Below are positions 3,720 through 29,413 of a stretch of DNA of 32,555 nt, one piece after another. Made by a program: the position numbers and the translations under genes. The stretch is from a virus. The notes beneath the pieces are model-generated. The model had not been told where the DNA came from. It ran no database searches and saw only the letters and a list, made by a program, of their open reading frames with translations. The stretch's first letter is position 1. The number at the start of each line of letters is the position of its first letter. Location of the stretch: positions 1 to 32,555 of IMG/VR virus record IMGVR_UViG_3300010375_000582. One strand, 5' to 3'.

Positions 3720-4165
3720 GTTTAGCAGCTACATACGAGGCCGTAACGATAATTGCCAAAGCTCAAAAAAAGCTAACGAAGCTTATCGGCCAGCCGGTTC
3801 AGTTAGGTATAATATCACCGGAAATTGACCTTGGCCAAATCCCATTGCCTGGCTTACTAAAAAGCATTGAGGATGTTAAGGCTATAGTTTGCGAGGAAAT
3901 GGAAATAACACTTGAGGATATTTCAAGCCAGTCGCGAAAACAGGTGATAGTTGACGCCCGAAAACTCGCAACATTGGCAATATACAGGCTTATCAAAGGT
4001 GTGTCGATTGAGCAAATAGCTGATTCGCTCGGTTATGAGAGGACTAATTTCTACAGTAACAATAATAGTGCAAAAAGGCTGCTTATAAGCAGCAGGTATT
4101 TCAACGGTCACTTTAATGCTATTCGTAACCGTGTAATTACGGAGGTGAAATATGTTAACTATTAG
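3716..4165 (+). CDS. DnaA domain IV-like helix-turn-helix protein (stand-alone)
   Basis: Residues about 52-124 of this 149-residue protein resemble the DNA-binding domain IV of the initiator DnaA. VCEEMEITLEDI is followed by SQSRKQVIVDARKLA, which matches the DnaA pattern of a regulatory helix then (S)RKR-x-IV-x-AR. Next comes a helix-turn-helix segment, GVSIEQIADSLGYERTNFY. The DnaA signature DHTTV is here ERTNF, so recognition of DnaA boxes is doubtful. There is no AAA+ domain. In this position it could be the early-to-middle activator (the Mor/C role in Mu) or a replication accessory; that is inference. Translation is coupled at both ends (ATGA at 3716; overlap at 4152). Confidence 0.7.
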   Translation: MSLAATYEAVTIIAKAQKKLTKLIGQPVQLGIISPEIDLGQIPLPGLLKSIEDVKAIVCEEMEITLEDISSQSRKQVIVDARKLATLAIYRLIKGVSIEQIADSLGYERTNFYSNNNSAKRLLISSRYFNGHFNAIRNRVITEVKYVNY

Positions 4166-4451
4166 CCTTACACCGTCAACGCTTAGCGCTTTAACATTTC
4201 GCCTAAGCGAGGAATGCCAGGCATTCAAGCCAGCTGATTACTACGAAAAAATGCTGCACGCCCTATTGCTTGAGTTTTATAAAAAGCTATTGGTTAGATG
4301 TTCATTCCCTAAAAAGGTAAACAGGTTTACACTGTCAGCACCTCAAGCAATGGCCTTTATACTCTACTTCGGAAACAACAAGCATTCAAGCGATTTAAGC
4401 GACAATACAATACTTCAAATAGTCCTATCAATCCAACAACATGCAACATAA
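4152..4451 (+). CDS. Hypothetical small protein
   Basis: This 99-residue protein overlaps its upstream neighbour by 14 bp, with a GGAGGT Shine-Dalgarno just before the ATG. It is helical-looking, with a basic centre (FYKKLLVRCSFPKKVNRF) and no clear membrane segment or motif. The next gene starts inside its 3' end at 4441. I do not recognise it. The overlaps support it as part of the early operon. Confidence 0.55.
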   Translation: MLTISLTPSTLSALTFRLSEECQAFKPADYYEKMLHALLLEFYKKLLVRCSFPKKVNRFTLSAPQAMAFILYFGNNKHSSDLSDNTILQIVLSIQQHAT

Positions 4452-9682: not shown

Positions 9683-10552
9683 ATGAATAGAGCAAACGAT
9701 ACAAGCCTGGTGATTTTTACAAGTGAGGGCCGTGAACATCTAATTAAACAAACTATACCATCATTTTTAAACGCGTGCAGCTTTCAGTTCAGCGCAATAA
9801 TAATCGCGATTGACGGGCAATATAATTTGCAGGAGCTGGAACGGTATGACTACGACCACTTAATTTATCACCCTAAAAGAATTGGTTATGTAAACAGCCT
9901 TATACAAGCGTTAAAGGCTATTGATACGCCCTACTTTTTTTTGTTAGAAGATGATTTTTTATTTAAGCAAGCCGTTCCGTTAGATAAAATGCTTAACCAT
10001 TTAAAAGCTGATGATGGTTGGGGTGCGGTGTTTCTTAGCAGAAGTGCGCCATTGACCGAAGCTGACAAGGTTGGGTATTATAGCGATGATTTGTTTAAGC
10101 CCGAATATGGCTTGTCAATTTCTCCTGCCTTGTTCAATACCAAACACTTGCGTTCTGCATTTAAAAGCCTGGTTGATGAGCCGAAAAACGAAGTTACCGC
10201 CTTTGTTGGTTTTGAGCCTTACGTAGAGAATTATTTCACTCAAAATGATATTAAGTTTGCTGTAATTGACCCCGGCCAAACGGCACATGTAGACCACATC
10301 GGATATTTGGAAAGTACAGCGAGGGAATATCACATGATTAATTCAGTTGATGAGAAATTTACGGATGTGAACAAGCGCTATCTTTCCGGCTTTGGTAAGG
10401 AAAGTACGTTAACGTTATATAATAAACTGGCAATGCTGCCTAAGCTATGGCTTGCCGTTGTTGTGATGAGCTTTAAGATTTTTAATGTTCGTCAGGCTTA
10501 TGATACAGCTTTCAGGGTTTATATATCTTACCTCCGAAAATTTAAATATTGA
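9683..10552 (+). CDS. Glycosyltransferase, GT-A (family 2-like)
   Basis: This 289-residue protein begins with a GT-A Rossmann strand (TSLVIFTSEGREHLIKQTIPSFL), has a second strand IIIAIDG at about 39-45, and the metal/nucleotide-sugar motif LLEDDF with E89-D90-D91. It ends with a hydrophobic segment (LPKLWLAVVVMSFKIF) that may bind the membrane. It should transfer a sugar from a nucleotide-sugar donor, perhaps to host surface polysaccharide (superinfection exclusion by seroconversion) or to a phage component. I chose the ATG at 9683 because the longer frame would run through the upstream terminator, and because TAACTTTG lies 5 bp before this ATG. T8 at about 9945-9952 lies in the codons before the EDD motif. 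Confidence 0.72.
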   Translation: MNRANDTSLVIFTSEGREHLIKQTIPSFLNACSFQFSAIIIAIDGQYNLQELERYDYDHLIYHPKRIGYVNSLIQALKAIDTPYFFLLEDDFLFKQAVPLDKMLNHLKADDGWGAVFLSRSAPLTEADKVGYYSDDLFKPEYGLSISPALFNTKHLRSAFKSLVDEPKNEVTAFVGFEPYVENYFTQNDIKFAVIDPGQTAHVDHIGYLESTAREYHMINSVDEKFTDVNKRYLSGFGKESTLTLYNKLAMLPKLWLAVVVMSFKIFNVRQAYDTAFRVYISYLRKFKY

Positions 10553-17511: not shown

Positions 17512-17928
17512 TTACCAGCGTTTAGATTGTTGTGTACCCGATGAGCCAAATCGGAATAAGGGGTCTTTTTCCGGCGCTTCAATCGGCGGCAATGACGGGA
17601 TGAGCGAACCGCCGTTAACTCCGTTTAACCAAGTGTTCGCAGCGTTAAACCTGTCTTCACGGTTTTTGGGTACAACCCTTGATGGTGTGTTGCTATGCAG
17701 GTGATAGAGAATGATGTCTATCATGTACATTACTATAAGCGGGTTTCGAGCCTCGTCACGCGCCGCAAATGTCGCTGCTGCATCAAACCGTGTCTTGATA
17801 CTTGAGCTTACCGTTTCCATAGCTACCAGCTCGCCGGTGTCAAGCGATGTAGTACTAATTTTAAGCACGTTTAGAACCTCGTTCCGAACCTGCATTTCTT
17901 CAAAGTCGCTATCCTTTAGGAAAATCAT
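17512..17928 (-). CDS. DUF1320 / Mu gp36-like head-tail connector protein
   Basis: This 138-residue protein has the layout of the gp36 family: a short N-terminal strand/helix with acidic residues (DSDFEEMQVRNEVLNVL), a central helix with VMYMIDIILYHLHSNTPSRVVPKNREDRF, and a WLNGVNGGSLIPSLP stretch, ending in a Ser/Gln/Lys tail. Such proteins act at the portal neck. It lies between the membrane protein and the portal gene; in Mu, gp36 is elsewhere among the head genes. It overlaps the upstream gene by 4 bp. Confidence 0.75.
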   Translation of the reverse strand: MIFLKDSDFEEMQVRNEVLNVLKISTTSLDTGELVAMETVSSSIKTRFDAAATFAARDEARNPLIVMYMIDIILYHLHSNTPSRVVPKNREDRFNAANTWLNGVNGGSLIPSLPPIEAPEKDPLFRFGSSGTQQSKRW

Positions 17929-18173
17929 TTCTTGGCGGCTTTAAGGGTTTCGACATCTTTTTGCAAAAGCGTTACCTGGTTCTCCAAAACAGTTATCCGG
18001 ATGTTGTTAATCCGTGCTTCGGTCTTAGAATCCGCTTTCATTTCCTGTATTTGAGATTTTAATCCGAAATAGGTTGTCATCACGGATATAACTATGCTTG
18101 CCGTACTTATAATCGTGACGATTACGTTTTTAACTGTTATTCCCTTTAGCTGGGTGTGTTCAAATGTTGTCAT
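17925..18173 (-). CDS. Small membrane and coiled-coil protein
   Basis: This 82-residue protein has one transmembrane helix at about residues 16-38 (VIVTIISTASIVISVMTTYFGL) followed by a coiled coil (about 40-80: QIQEMKADSKTEARINNIRITVLENQVTLLQKDVETLK split by charge into heptads). It starts 1 bp after the large terminase stop. The layout recalls phage lysis accessories (Rz-like or XhlA-like) but also small membrane proteins of unknown use. The location inside the packaging genes is unusual for lysis. No firm call. Confidence 0.6.
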   Translation of the reverse strand: MTTFEHTQLKGITVKNVIVTIISTASIVISVMTTYFGLKSQIQEMKADSKTEARINNIRITVLENQVTLLQKDVETLKAAKK

Positions 18174-20372: not shown

Positions 20373-21398
20373 ATGAAAAAAAGCACTAAGACATTTGTTA
20401 TTTCGGATGAGACACCAAACCTATTCGGCTTTGTAACCAAGACGGACGGGATTGACCTTTCGGACTTTTTTGAGAACCCGGTTTTATTGTTTAATCACGA
20501 TTATAATAAAGTGATAGGCCAATGGACTGATGTTCGGGTTGAAAGCGGAAAGTTACTTGGTGTTCCTATGTTCGACGAAAGCGACCCCGAGGCCATGTTA
20601 CTATACGGCAAAGTTGAACAGGGTATTTTAAAGGCCTGCAGCGCTGGCCTCACGCCGATTCAGTTCGATGAGCAAAAGAACATCCTTGTAAAATCATCAC
20701 TAAAAGAGGGTACGCTTACGCCCGTTGGAGCCAATAGGAAAGCTATAACGCTAAGCCTGTATGACACCAAAGGTAAAAGCCTTTCAGGTACAGATGTCAA
20801 AGAGTTTCTCTTATCACTTCAACCTACTCAAGCAGACAAACCACAAAATCAAACAATGAAACAAAGCTTAATTAATGCTATGGTCGTGCTGTGTGCAGCG
20901 GCCGGGCAAACAGTCGCCTTGAGCGCAACAGAGGATGAATTTGAGGCCGGGCTAAAAGCTGCAGGCGTGAGATTAAGTGCTTTAACTAATCAGGTCAATT
21001 CACTTGAGCTTTCAGCAAAGTTACTTGCCGGGAAAGAGCTTGATGATTTGCTTACAAATGCTGTAACTGAAAAGTTATTAAGCGCTGCACAAGTGCCAGC
21101 ATTCAGGGCGCTTGGAGAAATGAACATCGAGCAATTAAAGGTCACTCTTTCGGCCATGAAGCCAGCCATTACTAAGCCGGTTGAGCAGCAGCGTACAATC
21201 ACAACTACAACTATTGACCCTAACGACCCAACCGCAAAATGGACTTACGACGAATTTGCCTTGAACGCTCCTGATGAATTGAAAAAAATGCAGGTGAACG
21301 ACAAGGCCCGTTTCGAGCTGCTATTGAGCGCAAAGGTTAAATCAGCCCGTACCAAATACTCAATCGCCGCTGATGACGAACCGGATATGAATATCTAA
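20373..21398 (+). CDS. Prohead protease with fused scaffold domain (Mu gpI-like)
   Basis: This 341-residue protein has a serine-protease N-terminus: H42 in NPVLLFNHDYNKVIGQW, S90 in ACSAGLTPI and E112 in KEGTLTPVGANRKAI, the layout of HK97/U35-type prohead proteases. Residues about 150-341 form a helical, Ala/Leu/Gln-rich scaffold with a TTTTT linker near 278. The protease matures the scaffold and capsid during assembly. An in-frame ATG at 20856 (M162) could start a scaffold-only product, as gpZ is made from within gpI in Mu. It opens the rightward late operon, upstream of the capsid gene. Confidence 0.82.
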   Translation: MKKSTKTFVISDETPNLFGFVTKTDGIDLSDFFENPVLLFNHDYNKVIGQWTDVRVESGKLLGVPMFDESDPEAMLLYGKVEQGILKACSAGLTPIQFDEQKNILVKSSLKEGTLTPVGANRKAITLSLYDTKGKSLSGTDVKEFLLSLQPTQADKPQNQTMKQSLINAMVVLCAAAGQTVALSATEDEFEAGLKAAGVRLSALTNQVNSLELSAKLLAGKELDDLLTNAVTEKLLSAAQVPAFRALGEMNIEQLKVTLSAMKPAITKPVEQQRTITTTTIDPNDPTAKWTYDEFALNAPDELKKMQVNDKARFELLLSAKVKSARTKYSIAADDEPDMNI

Positions 21399-21457: not shown

Positions 21458-22558
21458 ATGAAAAATTATCAAAAAACGATTACAGACCTGCTTTTTAACT
21501 TCATCATGGGGTGTGTTGTAGGTTTGGTTTTACTATTGCCTTTCCGCTATAATCCACTTTACGGCGGCGTTGCGTTCGTAGCTTTTACAATCGTAGCATT
21601 TATCTATTGCTTTTATACCGGCAAATCTATTTTGCCGCGCTGGCTGCTTTACGCTGGCTTGTTAAAGGAAATTTGGATAAGCCGCCTGATGGAAAAATTC
21701 TATCCTACCGCTGCATGGTTGGATAGAGCGCAGGATTTGAGCGGCTCGGTAGAATATAACACTATCAACCTTGCCGAAATTGGAGCTGACCCGGATGTAT
21801 TGGTTAATAACACTTCTTATCCCGTGCCGTTCGCCGAGCGTACCGATGTGCCGCAACAGTTACCGCTTGACTACTATGATACAAAGGGAACGGTCGTAAG
21901 GAACTCCGAGGTGATGCAACTGGCTTACCCTAAAATGGACACCGTTGTAAGACAGCACGGCCAAGCCCTGGCTAAGGAACAAAGTAAAAAAGCTGCCTGG
22001 AACTTTGCCCCGGCTGCAGATGGAGCCTTTACGCCTGTTATAGGTACTGATGTTGGTTTTGATGCCGCTGCACAAGCCGCCGCCGCTTCGGGTTTCCAGT
22101 ACACTTTTACCTTTGAAGTAATCATCCAGTTAGGGCAAAAATTTGACGATATGGATGTTCCACAAGAGGGCCGCGTGTTGGTGTTAAATACACAGCATAA
22201 AGCCGACTTGTTGAAAGCCGACCTGAAATTGTACAAAGCCCTAACTAACCAGGCTAAAGGCGAAATGCTAATGCAATATGGCAGTTTTGACATATACGAT
22301 AGCACCCAAACGCCGACCTACAATGGCTCAACCAAAGCTAAAAAGGCTTATGGTGCAAGCGCTGCAGGTACTGATGCGAAATCTTCTTTTGCTTTCGTAG
22401 ATACCGAGGTAATGCGTTGCAGGGGTACAATGGATATGTTTTCGCGTCTTAAAGACCCGGAAGCCCGTGGCGACATTATCGGTTTCCAGCAACGCTTTTT
22501 AGCGATGTCGTTGCGAGGTAAATACATCGCTGCTATTGTAGACCAAAAGAAACCTTAA
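21458..22558 (+). CDS. Major capsid protein with an N-terminal membrane-helix extension
   Basis: This 366-residue protein has a capsid-like body from about residue 65 (LYAGLLKEIWISRLMEKFYPTA then VEYNTINLAEIGADPDVLVNN) to LAMSLRGKYIAAIVDQ. This matches Bacteroidota phage capsid proteins of the HK97 fold. Ahead of it are two hydrophobic helices, about 11-28 (LLFNFIMGCVVGLVLLLP) and 34-54 (LYGGVAFVAFTIVAFIYCF), not needed for a capsid. They could be a scaffold-like delta domain removed by the upstream protease. There is no second start codon in a good place after the helices. The ATG at 21458 follows AAAAGGAC. Confidence 0.83.
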   Translation: MKNYQKTITDLLFNFIMGCVVGLVLLLPFRYNPLYGGVAFVAFTIVAFIYCFYTGKSILPRWLLYAGLLKEIWISRLMEKFYPTAAWLDRAQDLSGSVEYNTINLAEIGADPDVLVNNTSYPVPFAERTDVPQQLPLDYYDTKGTVVRNSEVMQLAYPKMDTVVRQHGQALAKEQSKKAAWNFAPAADGAFTPVIGTDVGFDAAAQAAAASGFQYTFTFEVIIQLGQKFDDMDVPQEGRVLVLNTQHKADLLKADLKLYKALTNQAKGEMLMQYGSFDIYDSTQTPTYNGSTKAKKAYGASAAGTDAKSSFAFVDTEVMRCRGTMDMFSRLKDPEARGDIIGFQQRFLAMSLRGKYIAAIVDQKKP

Positions 22559-23561: not shown

Positions 23562-24371
23562 ATGATTCATATTAAAAACTATTTCAAAGAAACTTCGGTC
23601 AGGGTCAAAAAATTTGGCCTTTGGCTTAAAGGGTTAATCGGTACTGCAGCCGCATCGGCGTATATACAAAGTGATGTAAAAACTGCTTTTTATTTATTGC
23701 TCGCCGGTGCCGTCATCACCGGAATATTGGAGCTTTTGCCTCCTGACAACGAACAGACCAGCGGCGACAAGTCGGCACTCAAGGGAGCTGCACCGATAGC
23801 CGCCGCGCTTATAGCGCTGATTTGTCTTGTCAGCTCGTGCAGTGTCATACGCCCCGGCTCTGACACTGTTAAGACTGACAGCACCAAAACCACCTTTACA
23901 CATCAAACGGTTGACGTGAAAGGCGCTAAGGTGACGGCCAGCCTGAACATTGACAGCCTGCTAAAAGCGGCGACTAAAGCCCGTTTAAAACAGCAGTTGG
24001 ATTCGGCAGCTTACGCGCAAAAACTTGCGCAATACAAAGTTGATTCAGCTGCAGCGGCAAAGGCAGGCAAACCATTAACCGAGACCCGCCCCGCCCCGCC
24101 AAAACCGCAAACGCAATACGTTACCGACCCGCAAACAAAGGCGCAATTATCGTACTGGATTGACCAATATGATAACCTGCAGGTGGGTTGCGAAAGTAAA
24201 GACCAGGCTATTGACGTGTTGACTACACAGATAGACCATTTAAAAAGCCAGGTTACGACCAAAACAGTAGTGAGTTATAAAACATCGGTTTGGGCTTACG
24301 TTGTGATGGCTATTGTCGGCGTGCTATCACTCATTTTATTCATCCTGTATCAAACCAAGAAAGGAGCTTAA
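23562..24371 (+). CDS. Multi-TM holin/spanin-like membrane protein with internal lipobox-like motif
   Basis: This 269-residue protein has a basic N-terminus, hydrophobic helices at about 20-35, 41-59 and 75-92, then C93 in a lipobox-like LVSSC. A Thr/Lys/Asp- and Gln-rich region (about 95-240) with coiled-coil potential follows, and a final helix at about 244-263 with a Lys-rich end. The first part looks like a holin, the middle like a spanin lipoprotein, the end like an inner-membrane anchor. It is unusual as one ORF and could be a fused lysis protein. It precedes the sheath gene, whose AAGGAG lies in its 3' end. Confidence 0.55.
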   Translation: MIHIKNYFKETSVRVKKFGLWLKGLIGTAAASAYIQSDVKTAFYLLLAGAVITGILELLPPDNEQTSGDKSALKGAAPIAAALIALICLVSSCSVIRPGSDTVKTDSTKTTFTHQTVDVKGAKVTASLNIDSLLKAATKARLKQQLDSAAYAQKLAQYKVDSAAAAKAGKPLTETRPAPPKPQTQYVTDPQTKAQLSYWIDQYDNLQVGCESKDQAIDVLTTQIDHLKSQVTTKTVVSYKTSVWAYVVMAIVGVLSLILFILYQTKKGA

Positions 24372-27459: not shown

Positions 27460-27770
27460 GAGCAGTGATAGTACAAAACCGTCAAAACGTTATTGACCTC
27501 GCTACGCAATACTATGGCCGCGCAAGCGCCCTGGTTGACTTTTGCGATGATAACAATTTAGAGTTAGACAGCAATGTTGCGGCTGGCTCTACGGTTCTGA
27601 TACGCGACGATTACCCCGCAAATGCGGATGCCGAGTATGCTGATTACATCAAGATTGCCGGTATAGTCATAGTCAGCCTATCCAGCGCCGACGATGACGA
27701 GTATAGCGCATTAGGCACAAACAATAACGAATTCATCATAACCAACGACAATAATTACATACAGTCATAA
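27456..27770 (+). CDS. LysM-like baseplate protein (gpX-like)
   Basis: This 104-residue protein begins with NRQNVIDLATQYYGRASALVDFCDDNNLELDSNVAAGSTVLI (split around residue 25), the LysM or P2 gpX pattern of a helix-strand unit that binds peptidoglycan or structures the baseplate hub. The C-terminal half is acidic and variable. It overlaps both neighbouring genes by 1-4 bp, showing a tight tail operon. Confidence 0.6.
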   Translation: MRAVIVQNRQNVIDLATQYYGRASALVDFCDDNNLELDSNVAAGSTVLIRDDYPANADAEYADYIKIAGIVIVSLSSADDDEYSALGTNNNEFIITNDNNYIQS

Positions 27771-29413
27771 TGTTAGACTTAAAGAAAATAGGGGAATTAG
27801 ACGCCGCCACTGACTTACAGGACGGCTATAATGGCGTTGTTTCAACCGGGCCTGGCGCTACCGATGTTAAACGTTTTTCATTCGCCTTATTGCGTTCATG
27901 GATTAATAGTTTGATAACGGCGGCTATCGCTGGTATTACGCAAGGGCCTGCAGGCCCGCAAGGTTCGCCGGGCGCTCCTGGTGCTACTGGCGCTGCAGGT
28001 GCTAAAGGCGACAAGGGCGACAAGGGTGATACTGGATTAAAAGGTGACGTTGGGCCAACAGGCCCGGTTGGCATTCAGGGAGCTAAAGGAGACAAGGGCG
28101 ACAAAGGCGACAAAGGAGATACCGGCGCACAAGGCATTCAGGGCGTGAAGGGTGAAAAAGGCGACAAAGGAGACACCGGCGAAAAAGGAGATACAGGCGA
28201 ATCCGGGCCTGCAGGTGCTGACGGCCCGGCTGGTGCAACCGGCGCTGATGGTGCACCGGGTGTAGGTGTTCCTGCAGGCGGTTCTGCAGGCAAGATATTG
28301 GCAAAGCATTCGGCAACCGATTACGATACAGAATGGATTGACGCACCTACAAGCGGCGGTACACCGGGCGGGGCAAATAAGCAGATACAGTATAACAATT
28401 CCGGCGTGTTCGGCGGCTCGTCAAAATTGGTTTTTGACAACGGAACGGCGCTTGTTGAGATGGATAGCACCAACCAGGGCTTGCTGATTCCTTGCATGAC
28501 CGAAGCGCAAAGGTTAGCTATAGTATCGCCTGCAGTTGGCTTGCAAGTTTATCAAACTGATAGCGGTACTTATGGCGAGGGTTGTTATCAATACAGGTCA
28601 ACCGGGTGGACGGCAAGCAGCGGCGGCGTTGCTGGTTCTACGGGGCAAATTCAGTTCAATAATGCGGGGGCATTTGCTGCTACATCCGCGATGTCGTTTG
28701 ACCCTGTAAATAGTATTCTTTCATTCATTGCTCATTCTTTTTATGGTATCGTATATGATAGTCTTGCCCCTTACTATACTGCGATTAGGCTTAATTCAAA
28801 CGGTGTAAATTTTGGCTCTATTGGTGCTGGTAACAGTTCAGTTATAGGCGGCACTACTGACTTGTCAATAATAGGCAGTCACCATGTCAGTATAGAGGCG
28901 GCAAACAACCTTTATCTAAAGGGGAATGTAATTTTCGGGGAAACGGGAACTTTCGGAGATGGTTCTCACGGGTCATGGCAATACGGGTGTTTTTCAGCGG
29001 GGGCAAATAAATCGGTTAGTATAGGTTACAACTTTACAGGCGGTCAATTCAGTATGGGTAATGCAGGCGGCGGGTTAGCCAGCTTTCAAACAGCAACAGA
29101 TTGGCTTTTCGGCGGCGTAAACATCGGCATAGCTGACGCTTTAGGGCCTGGCACGTCACAGAGTAATGTTTATGCACAATTTATGGCTGCAACTAAATCG
29201 CTGATATTAAACGGTGGTGGCAACTTCACCGCAGAAGCATCAGCTCAATTGCAGGTAGACAGCACAACAAAGGGAGTGTTATTTCCCCGGATGACCACTA
29301 CGCAAAAGAACGCGATAACCAGCCCGGCCGAGGGCTTGACTGTTTATGATACTTCGTTGCATAAGCTTTGTATTTACACAGGTTCAGCCTGGCAAACCAT
29401 AACCTCTGTTTAA
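27770..29413 (+). CDS. Collagen-like tail fibre protein
   Basis: This 547-residue protein has an N-terminal attachment domain (1-58), a collagen-like Gly-X-Y stretch (59-167) with many GDKGDKGDTG and GPAG triplets, and a long C-terminal part rich in Gly, Ser and Asn. The latter has repeated domains that begin ...GGSSKLVFDNG and ...TGQIQFNNAGAF, with two related ends, GLLIPCMTEAQRLAI and GVLFPRMTTTQKNAI. It should be a trimeric fibre for host attachment. It lies within the baseplate genes, before the gpD hub, not at the usual fibre locus near the end. Confidence 0.82.
   Translation: MLDLKKIGELDAATDLQDGYNGVVSTGPGATDVKRFSFALLRSWINSLITAAIAGITQGPAGPQGSPGAPGATGAAGAKGDKGDKGDTGLKGDVGPTGPVGIQGAKGDKGDKGDKGDTGAQGIQGVKGEKGDKGDTGEKGDTGESGPAGADGPAGATGADGAPGVGVPAGGSAGKILAKHSATDYDTEWIDAPTSGGTPGGANKQIQYNNSGVFGGSSKLVFDNGTALVEMDSTNQGLLIPCMTEAQRLAIVSPAVGLQVYQTDSGTYGEGCYQYRSTGWTASSGGVAGSTGQIQFNNAGAFAATSAMSFDPVNSILSFIAHSFYGIVYDSLAPYYTAIRLNSNGVNFGSIGAGNSSVIGGTTDLSIIGSHHVSIEAANNLYLKGNVIFGETGTFGDGSHGSWQYGCFSAGANKSVSIGYNFTGGQFSMGNAGGGLASFQTATDWLFGGVNIGIADALGPGTSQSNVYAQFMAATKSLILNGGGNFTAEASAQLQVDSTTKGVLFPRMTTTQKNAITSPAEGLTVYDTSLHKLCIYTGSAWQTITSV
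27944..28270 (+). repeat. Collagen-like coding repeat (Gly-X-Y)
   Basis: About 36 triplets with Gly at every third codon (GGN-NNN-NNN), with near-identical 9-bp units such as GGCGACAAG repeated several times. The unit number can vary by recombination, which would change fibre length. It is part of the tail fibre gene. Confidence 0.8.

Follow-up and report, generated by a model that had tools for sequence, protein, structure and literature searches.

A predicted hydrophobic hairpin at the N-terminus of the major capsid protein of a Winoviridae-like phage, repeatedly switched among relatives, and its possible role at the host membrane

Tailed phages are generally assumed to have soluble capsid proteins, with N-terminal delta domains that act as soluble scaffolds. 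The gene at 21458–22558 (plus strand) of the viral sequence analyzed here (32,555 nt, further referred to as the window) departs from both, as its product starts with a hairpin of the membrane type, and the question is what such a hairpin does on a shell protein. The ORF starts with ATG and encodes 366 amino acids, and its product is an HK97-fold major capsid protein. The capsid body, from residue 67 to the stop (21656–22558, plus strand), belongs to the curated family phrog_267, “major head protein” (residues 67–360, E 3.2e-18), and is matched by capsids in PDB using Foldseek (best E 1.1e-11). In VIA-align 2 the best structural match is the LME-1 capsid (Z 17.4, 249 residues aligned, rmsd 3.3), and HK97 itself (1ohg) yields Z 13.8 with 229 residues aligned and rmsd 3.9. 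Other searches gave little: none of the Pfam capsid models matched the window capsid protein, Phage_capsid_2 matching 17 of the 77 members of its alignment A5, an NCBIfam search of the window produced no match, and the sole match in a PDB sequence search was a weak one (4bml, E 0.013).

The window also encodes a transposase (phrog_310), a terminase (phrog_38), a portal protein (phrog_113) and a sheath protein (phrog_907, DUF2586), with the protease–capsid gene pair standing beside the oppositely oriented portal and terminase genes, and its gene order matches that of Peternella_1. By its gene content and order, this Bacteroidetes phage belongs with the transposable phages of the Winoviridae kind. 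Several further ORFs deserve mention. A 289-aa ORF at 9683–10552 (plus strand), glycosyltransferase-like by eye, precedes the structural genes, in a region of small unassigned genes. An 82-aa ORF at 17925–18173 (minus strand), between the terminase and adaptor genes, has a hydrophobic segment at residues 17–35 followed by a charged helix-like part, and no PHROG match at 0.001. The predicted 547-aa protein at 27770–29413 (plus strand) has a collagen-like Gly-x-y stretch near its start and is, by eye, a tail fibre candidate.

Ahead of the capsid body lies a hydrophobic extension (residues 1–66; 21458–21655, plus strand), which is conserved in all five close relatives and absent from the unextended ones. 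In 19-residue Kyte-Doolittle windows the level of 1.6 is reached only at residues 11–29 (2.46) and 34–52 (2.13). The AlphaFold2 model of the window capsid (77 sequences, mean pLDDT 85.1, pTM 0.75) has helix 1 at residues 4–29 (21467–21544, plus strand), containing Asn14, Gly18 and Gly22, helix 2 at residues 33–54 (21554–21619, plus strand), a poorly defined linker at residues 63–73 with pLDDT below 50 (21644–21676, plus strand), and then the body. Ten-residue pLDDT means are 84–89 over residues 11–50, and 69 for residues 1–10. Both modeled helices have sufficient length to cross a bilayer. The model of the capsid from lotta8-1, a representative of a distant lineage, has a similar order, with helices at residues 7–24 and 27–44 and a weak stretch at 51–71 (mean pLDDT 78.8). 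As modeled, the extension is a two-helix hydrophobic hairpin of about 65 residues on a flexible linker. Hydropathy, AlphaFold2 and phrog_267 thus bear out the sequence-only reading, which had noticed two hydrophobic helices (residues 11–54) ahead of a normal capsid body. The models agree with a delta domain in placing a helical domain at the capsid N-terminus; a soluble coiled-coil make-up is not seen, given the hydropathy maxima of 2.46 and 2.13 and the few Asp and Glu residues. A match of Pfam DUF7670 to residues 6–66 (E 0.0097, 16.7 bits with the cut-off of 29) was taken for a chance one.

An extension of this kind might be an artefact of start choice or sequencing, with the real protein beginning at the junction between the extension and the body, as unextended relatives do, and methionines at position –4 or –5 relative to the body anchor in 24 of the 114 extended representatives could be read in the same way. 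We consider this practically negligible. The window capsid has no methionine at the junction, and the same extension, starting from an ATG at the same place, is present in all five close relatives (64–73% identity). Within the 20 nt preceding the ATG, the fraction of A equals 0.56 for extended (n = 113) and 0.62 for unextended starts (n = 55), compared to 0.19 at the junctions (n = 114) and 0.21 before the junction methionines. Hence an active internal start at these methionines is not supported, the upstream sequence not being start-like; in the lotta8-like lineage, the methionine is at –4 in 15 of 25 extended proteins, again with no start-like leader. Such methionines could be relics of a fusion ahead of a plain start or of a loss back to it. 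The extension is also under purifying selection. Out of 47 pairs of sequences, 45 were examined, and dS lay between 0 and 3 for both extension and body in 30 of them; the extension has dN/dS below one in 29 of these 30 pairs, some of which repeat near-identical phages, with a median of 0.23, compared to 0.08 for the body, the sole exception being the pair L210/L209. For the window, which is outside this set and was computed later, comparison with the five relatives L002–L006 yields extension dN of 0.24–0.43, dS of 0.97–2.83 and ratios of 0.14–0.29, the body dS being saturated. Taken at the sequence level, the extension reads as translated and selectively maintained. Both explanations that would have removed the helices are therefore unlikely: a later or non-ATG start, since the A-rich leader is found only at the extension ATG, and a frameshift error, since the frame is single and open and the extension starts from ATG in five of five close relatives.

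The composition of the extension resembles that of a membrane segment. In 114 extended representatives, Asp and Glu constitute 0.6% and 0.9% of the extension residues, respectively, compared to 7.3% and 5.1% in the body. Simple hydrophobicity and charge scales, applied with our own scripts in place of a trained topology predictor, yield a median KD17 of 2.26 for helix 1, and, in 102 representatives, another hydrophobic segment with KD15 of 1.2 or more, helix 2 being weak in the other 12. By the same scales, 111 of 114 proteins have a net positive charge ahead of helix 1, the loop is positive in only one and negative in 39, and the region after helix 2 is positive in 56 and negative in 12.

One face of helix 1 is conserved. 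In alignment A5, Asn14 is present in 70 of 77 sequences, with Gly or Ala four residues on in 73 and eight residues on in 62. The alignment-free pattern Asn-x3-[Gly/Ala] occurs in 95 of 114 representatives (shuffle mean 33.6, maximum 51), and its extended form, with a second [Gly/Ala] four residues further, in 76 (shuffle mean 8.1, maximum 19). The Peternella group, with short extensions, deviates, as the strict Asn motif is failed by 8 of its 11 representatives. Helix faces of the Asn/Gly/Ala type drive helix association. Together, the charge pattern, of the type expected for both ends in the cytoplasm (N-in/C-in), and the Asn-x3-Gly/Ala face point, at the level of sequence features, to real membrane helices with a specific job.

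Two other readings of these features were considered. The hairpins might never enter a membrane, but pack with each other and with the scaffold inside the prohead as a hydrophobic bundle to be digested later. The face of helix 1 would suit such packing, and the N-terminal scaffold domains of HK97 are described, in the excerpts of the paper used here, as helical, interior and removed (PMC10275583); still, the charge pattern and the near absence of Asp and Glu fit a membrane better, and we regard the bundle as rather unlikely, although the strongest of the alternatives. Alternatively, helix 1 could be a Sec-type signal sequence cut by the host signal peptidase in the loop, with helix 2 remaining as an anchor or lost later. 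Like a Sec signal, the extension has a basic start, lysine-rich and positive in 111 of 114, and after it a hydrophobic core, and the starts of the Peternella and lotta8 proteins look signal-peptide-like by eye. On the other hand, the core is not single: another hydrophobic segment follows in the window and in 102 of 114 representatives, which would be uncommon in a plain signal peptide, and an exported capsid protein could not package DNA. A loose test for a signal peptidase site (small-x-small-Gln), positive in 14 of 114, is uninformative. Export by Sec thus seems improbable.

Signal peptides nevertheless provide the only precedent that we found in the open-access literature, a single sentence in the consulted part of a paper on a Porphyromonas phage family, Nixviridae, whose capsid proteins are reported to have signal peptides, cut, as its authors think, by the prohead protease (PMC10367356), which lends some support to the signal-sequence explanation. 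The similarity consists in a hydrophobic start on the capsid protein of a Bacteroidetes phage; however, this is a different phage family, and the reported feature is a signal peptide and not a two-helix hairpin, the comparison being made by description. The annotated capsid protein of Porphyromonas phage019a (L236, 11676–13682), dissimilar by eye, also has a short signal-like hydrophobic stretch at its start and, after it, a charged, helix-like region. Hydrophobic starts may thus exist on more than one family of Bacteroidetes phage capsids. In the excerpts used, no such extension is mentioned for Peternella (PMC8776804), for lotta8 and pippi8 (PMC7077304), for hankyphage (PMC12135933), or in an AlphaFold-based taxonomy (PMC9855967).

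The search for the same extension in relatives, suggested as a check of the initial observation, was successful well beyond the five close relatives. The loci, 231 including the window, came from scans of viral contigs (five) and of genomes (one) and from records of the phage collection. Of these, 151 have an in-frame hydrophobic extension, 76 were scored as having none, three are truncated, and one (L013) is truncated but extended by eye; as the two largest scans each contributed only their 80 top-ranking relatives, out of 275 and 356, respectively, this is a biased sample, and 151:76 is not a population frequency. Starts were selected by rule, six being reset by hand, and two phages are present twice (L007/L220 and L008/L060). 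In one locus scored by the script as unextended, L143, a frameshift or sequencing error around 3980–4180 has split the extension from the body, and its exclusion leaves 75 loci with no extension. Among 170 representatives, 114 are extended and 56 are not. Extensions are 43–74 residues long (median 58), while unextended proteins start two to seven residues before the body anchor, at –4 in 45 of 55. In the first set of unextended capsids, none of 24 had a hydrophobic segment anywhere. The frequency of the extended capsids exceeds chance expectation, as a hydrophobic segment within the first 60 residues is seen in only 15 of 436 other ORFs of at least 250 aa from the representative loci.

The extension is found in the cultured phages Peternella_1, lotta8-1 and FPSV-S1, and a Mucilaginibacter metagenome-assembled genome (L014) is the only relative from a named host lineage whose extension is of the window’s type. 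The extension is absent from Porphyromonas phage015a and Flavobacterium phage fF4, and, from their annotated starts, neither the fF4 nor the Hankyphage p00 capsid has such an extension. A profile of the extension matches 135 of the 151 extended capsid ORFs (at most 77 of them by construction), none of the unextended ones, and, additionally, three capsid pieces (L013, L143 and L232). No standalone homologue of the extension was apparent in these loci, the only other ORF retrieved being at E 0.033. Nor was a separate short membrane gene seen upstream of the capsid gene in the 76 loci scored as unextended: 70 had no candidate, although L102 and L136 among them, with less than 150 nt upstream, are hardly informative, L143 has the extension in another frame, and hydrophobic stretches in other frames upstream in L097, L108, L111, L112 and L121 were taken for shadow frames of the upstream gene.

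On a tree of 170 representatives built from capsid bodies only, the extension has been switched at least 15 times (16 changes as scored, 15 with L143 corrected or omitted), compared to the mean of 47 changes when the extension label is shuffled on the same tree. The tree is a quick build with SH-aLRT as the only support, and its starred branches force ten changes, as scored with L143 included. This distribution bears on the possibility that the helices are kept in the virion and act at infection, e.g., in the passage of DNA through the membrane. Unextended close relatives manage with no such device, and hydrophobic helices on each subunit would crowd the space for DNA; we consider this the least probable of the functional readings.

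Another function of membrane helices in phages, holin-like action at lysis, was set aside as an explanation of the extension, as three hydrophobic segments are present in another ORF of the window (23562–24371) and a holin is reported in the excerpted description of Peternella (PMC8776804). This 269-aa ORF (plus strand) has a weak PHROG match to a lipoprotein (E 0.00053) and, judged by eye, is possibly a fused holin and spanin-like lysis protein.

Directly upstream of the capsid gene, as is typical for a delta domain, a phage protease is encoded. The ORF at 20373–21398 (plus strand), a prohead protease with a scaffold part, matches the head maturation protease family phrog_80 (E 1.2e-07), its best matches being to phrog_11321, a family with no assigned function (E 6.3e-47), and to phrog_617, “major head protein” (E 2.3e-10), while Pfam Peptidase_S78 scores 17.3 bits, below its cut-off of 21. 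An internal ATG at 20856 (plus strand; residue 162) follows an A-rich stretch and coincides with the apparent start of the scaffold part; a methionine near the equivalent position is frequent in relatives, and a distinct scaffold protein may be translated from this ATG. The stretch that follows is fairly hydrophobic in the window (KD19 1.74 at residues 165–183). The class of the protease does not explain the presence of the extension, as both classes occur with and without it: among 109 extended loci the protease is S78-like in 64, ClpP-like in 32 and unassigned in 13, and among 54 unextended ones, in 19, 11 and 24, respectively, many unassigned cases resulting from a crude choice of the upstream ORF.

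Our preferred reading, to which we assign about an even chance, is that the extension is a membrane-inserted domain of the delta type, N-in/C-in, that keeps the capsid precursor at the inner membrane during early head assembly, until the prohead protease removes it. Inserted in the inner membrane of the host, the hairpin would have both its termini on the cytoplasmic side and thereby leave the capsid body in the cytoplasm, and the conserved face of helix 1 may let precursor subunits associate at the membrane. The protease (S78-like here, ClpP-like in other members) would then cut the flexible linker at residues 63–73. As the junction is where unextended proteins start, cleavage there would produce a mature protein similar to them, that is, a soluble shell protein. 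The presence of the hairpin and the weak linker in two models from distant lineages agrees with this scheme. Speaking against it, the extension is dispensable across the family (76 of 231 sampled loci scored as lacking it, 75 with L143 excluded), extensions in the Peternella group are short, 12 of 114 representatives have a weak helix 2, and the flank after helix 2 is positive in only 56.

The sequence-only reading had gone further, suggesting a cleaved delta domain that anchors proheads at the membrane and works with the upstream protease. A separate N-terminal domain, membrane-type helices and an adjacent protease gene are indeed observed, but the logic of anchoring needs correction: as the HK97 N-terminal scaffold is inside the procapsid, according to the cited excerpts (PMC10275583), the hairpin alone does not explain anchoring of the prohead from outside. 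An interior scaffold would imply that the membrane phase precedes shell closure, or that the membrane is inside the growing shell, or that helices pack with each other in the absence of lipid. The second option would make the host membrane a transient scaffold inside the growing prohead, with inserted precursors coating the cytoplasmic face of a membrane bulge and lipid expelled after the helices have been cut. It combines the N-in/C-in hairpin with interior N-termini as in HK97 (same excerpts, PMC10275583), but we know of no lipid-expelling step, and we deem it a little less probable than export by Sec, and slightly more probable than retention of the helices in the virion. If true, capsids would here be assembled in a new way, the head of a tailed phage being shaped on a lipid bud.

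Known systems share parts of the preferred scheme. The delta domain of HK97 gp5 is a coiled-coil scaffold of 103 residues, whereas the extension in the window, of about 65 residues, is strongly hydrophobic with membrane-type charge, and its removal is putative; the place and likely fate of the extension are those of a delta domain, and its make-up differs. T4 heads begin at the inner membrane through the portal protein gp20 and leave it after cleavage, as stated in the excerpts of PMC9958956. The T4 capsid protein gp23 loses an N-terminal segment, as the window protein probably does, but in T4 the link to the membrane is gp20 with gp40 and not the capsid protein. The major coat protein pVIII of filamentous phages is transmembrane before assembly into a lipid-free virion (PMC3185693, in excerpt); however, it is an unrelated protein of an extruded filament, not of an HK97-fold head. 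For JBD30, the consulted part of the paper describes a separate scaffold and no membrane step (PMC11445458).

The pattern of the trait suggests a shell protein that is first held at the host membrane and trimmed later. As it was gained or lost repeatedly, relatives with and without it form natural pairs in which one can ask why certain heads, but not others, would be assembled at a membrane, and the cultured extended phages, Peternella_1, lotta8-1 and FPSV-S1, make the hairpin model testable now.
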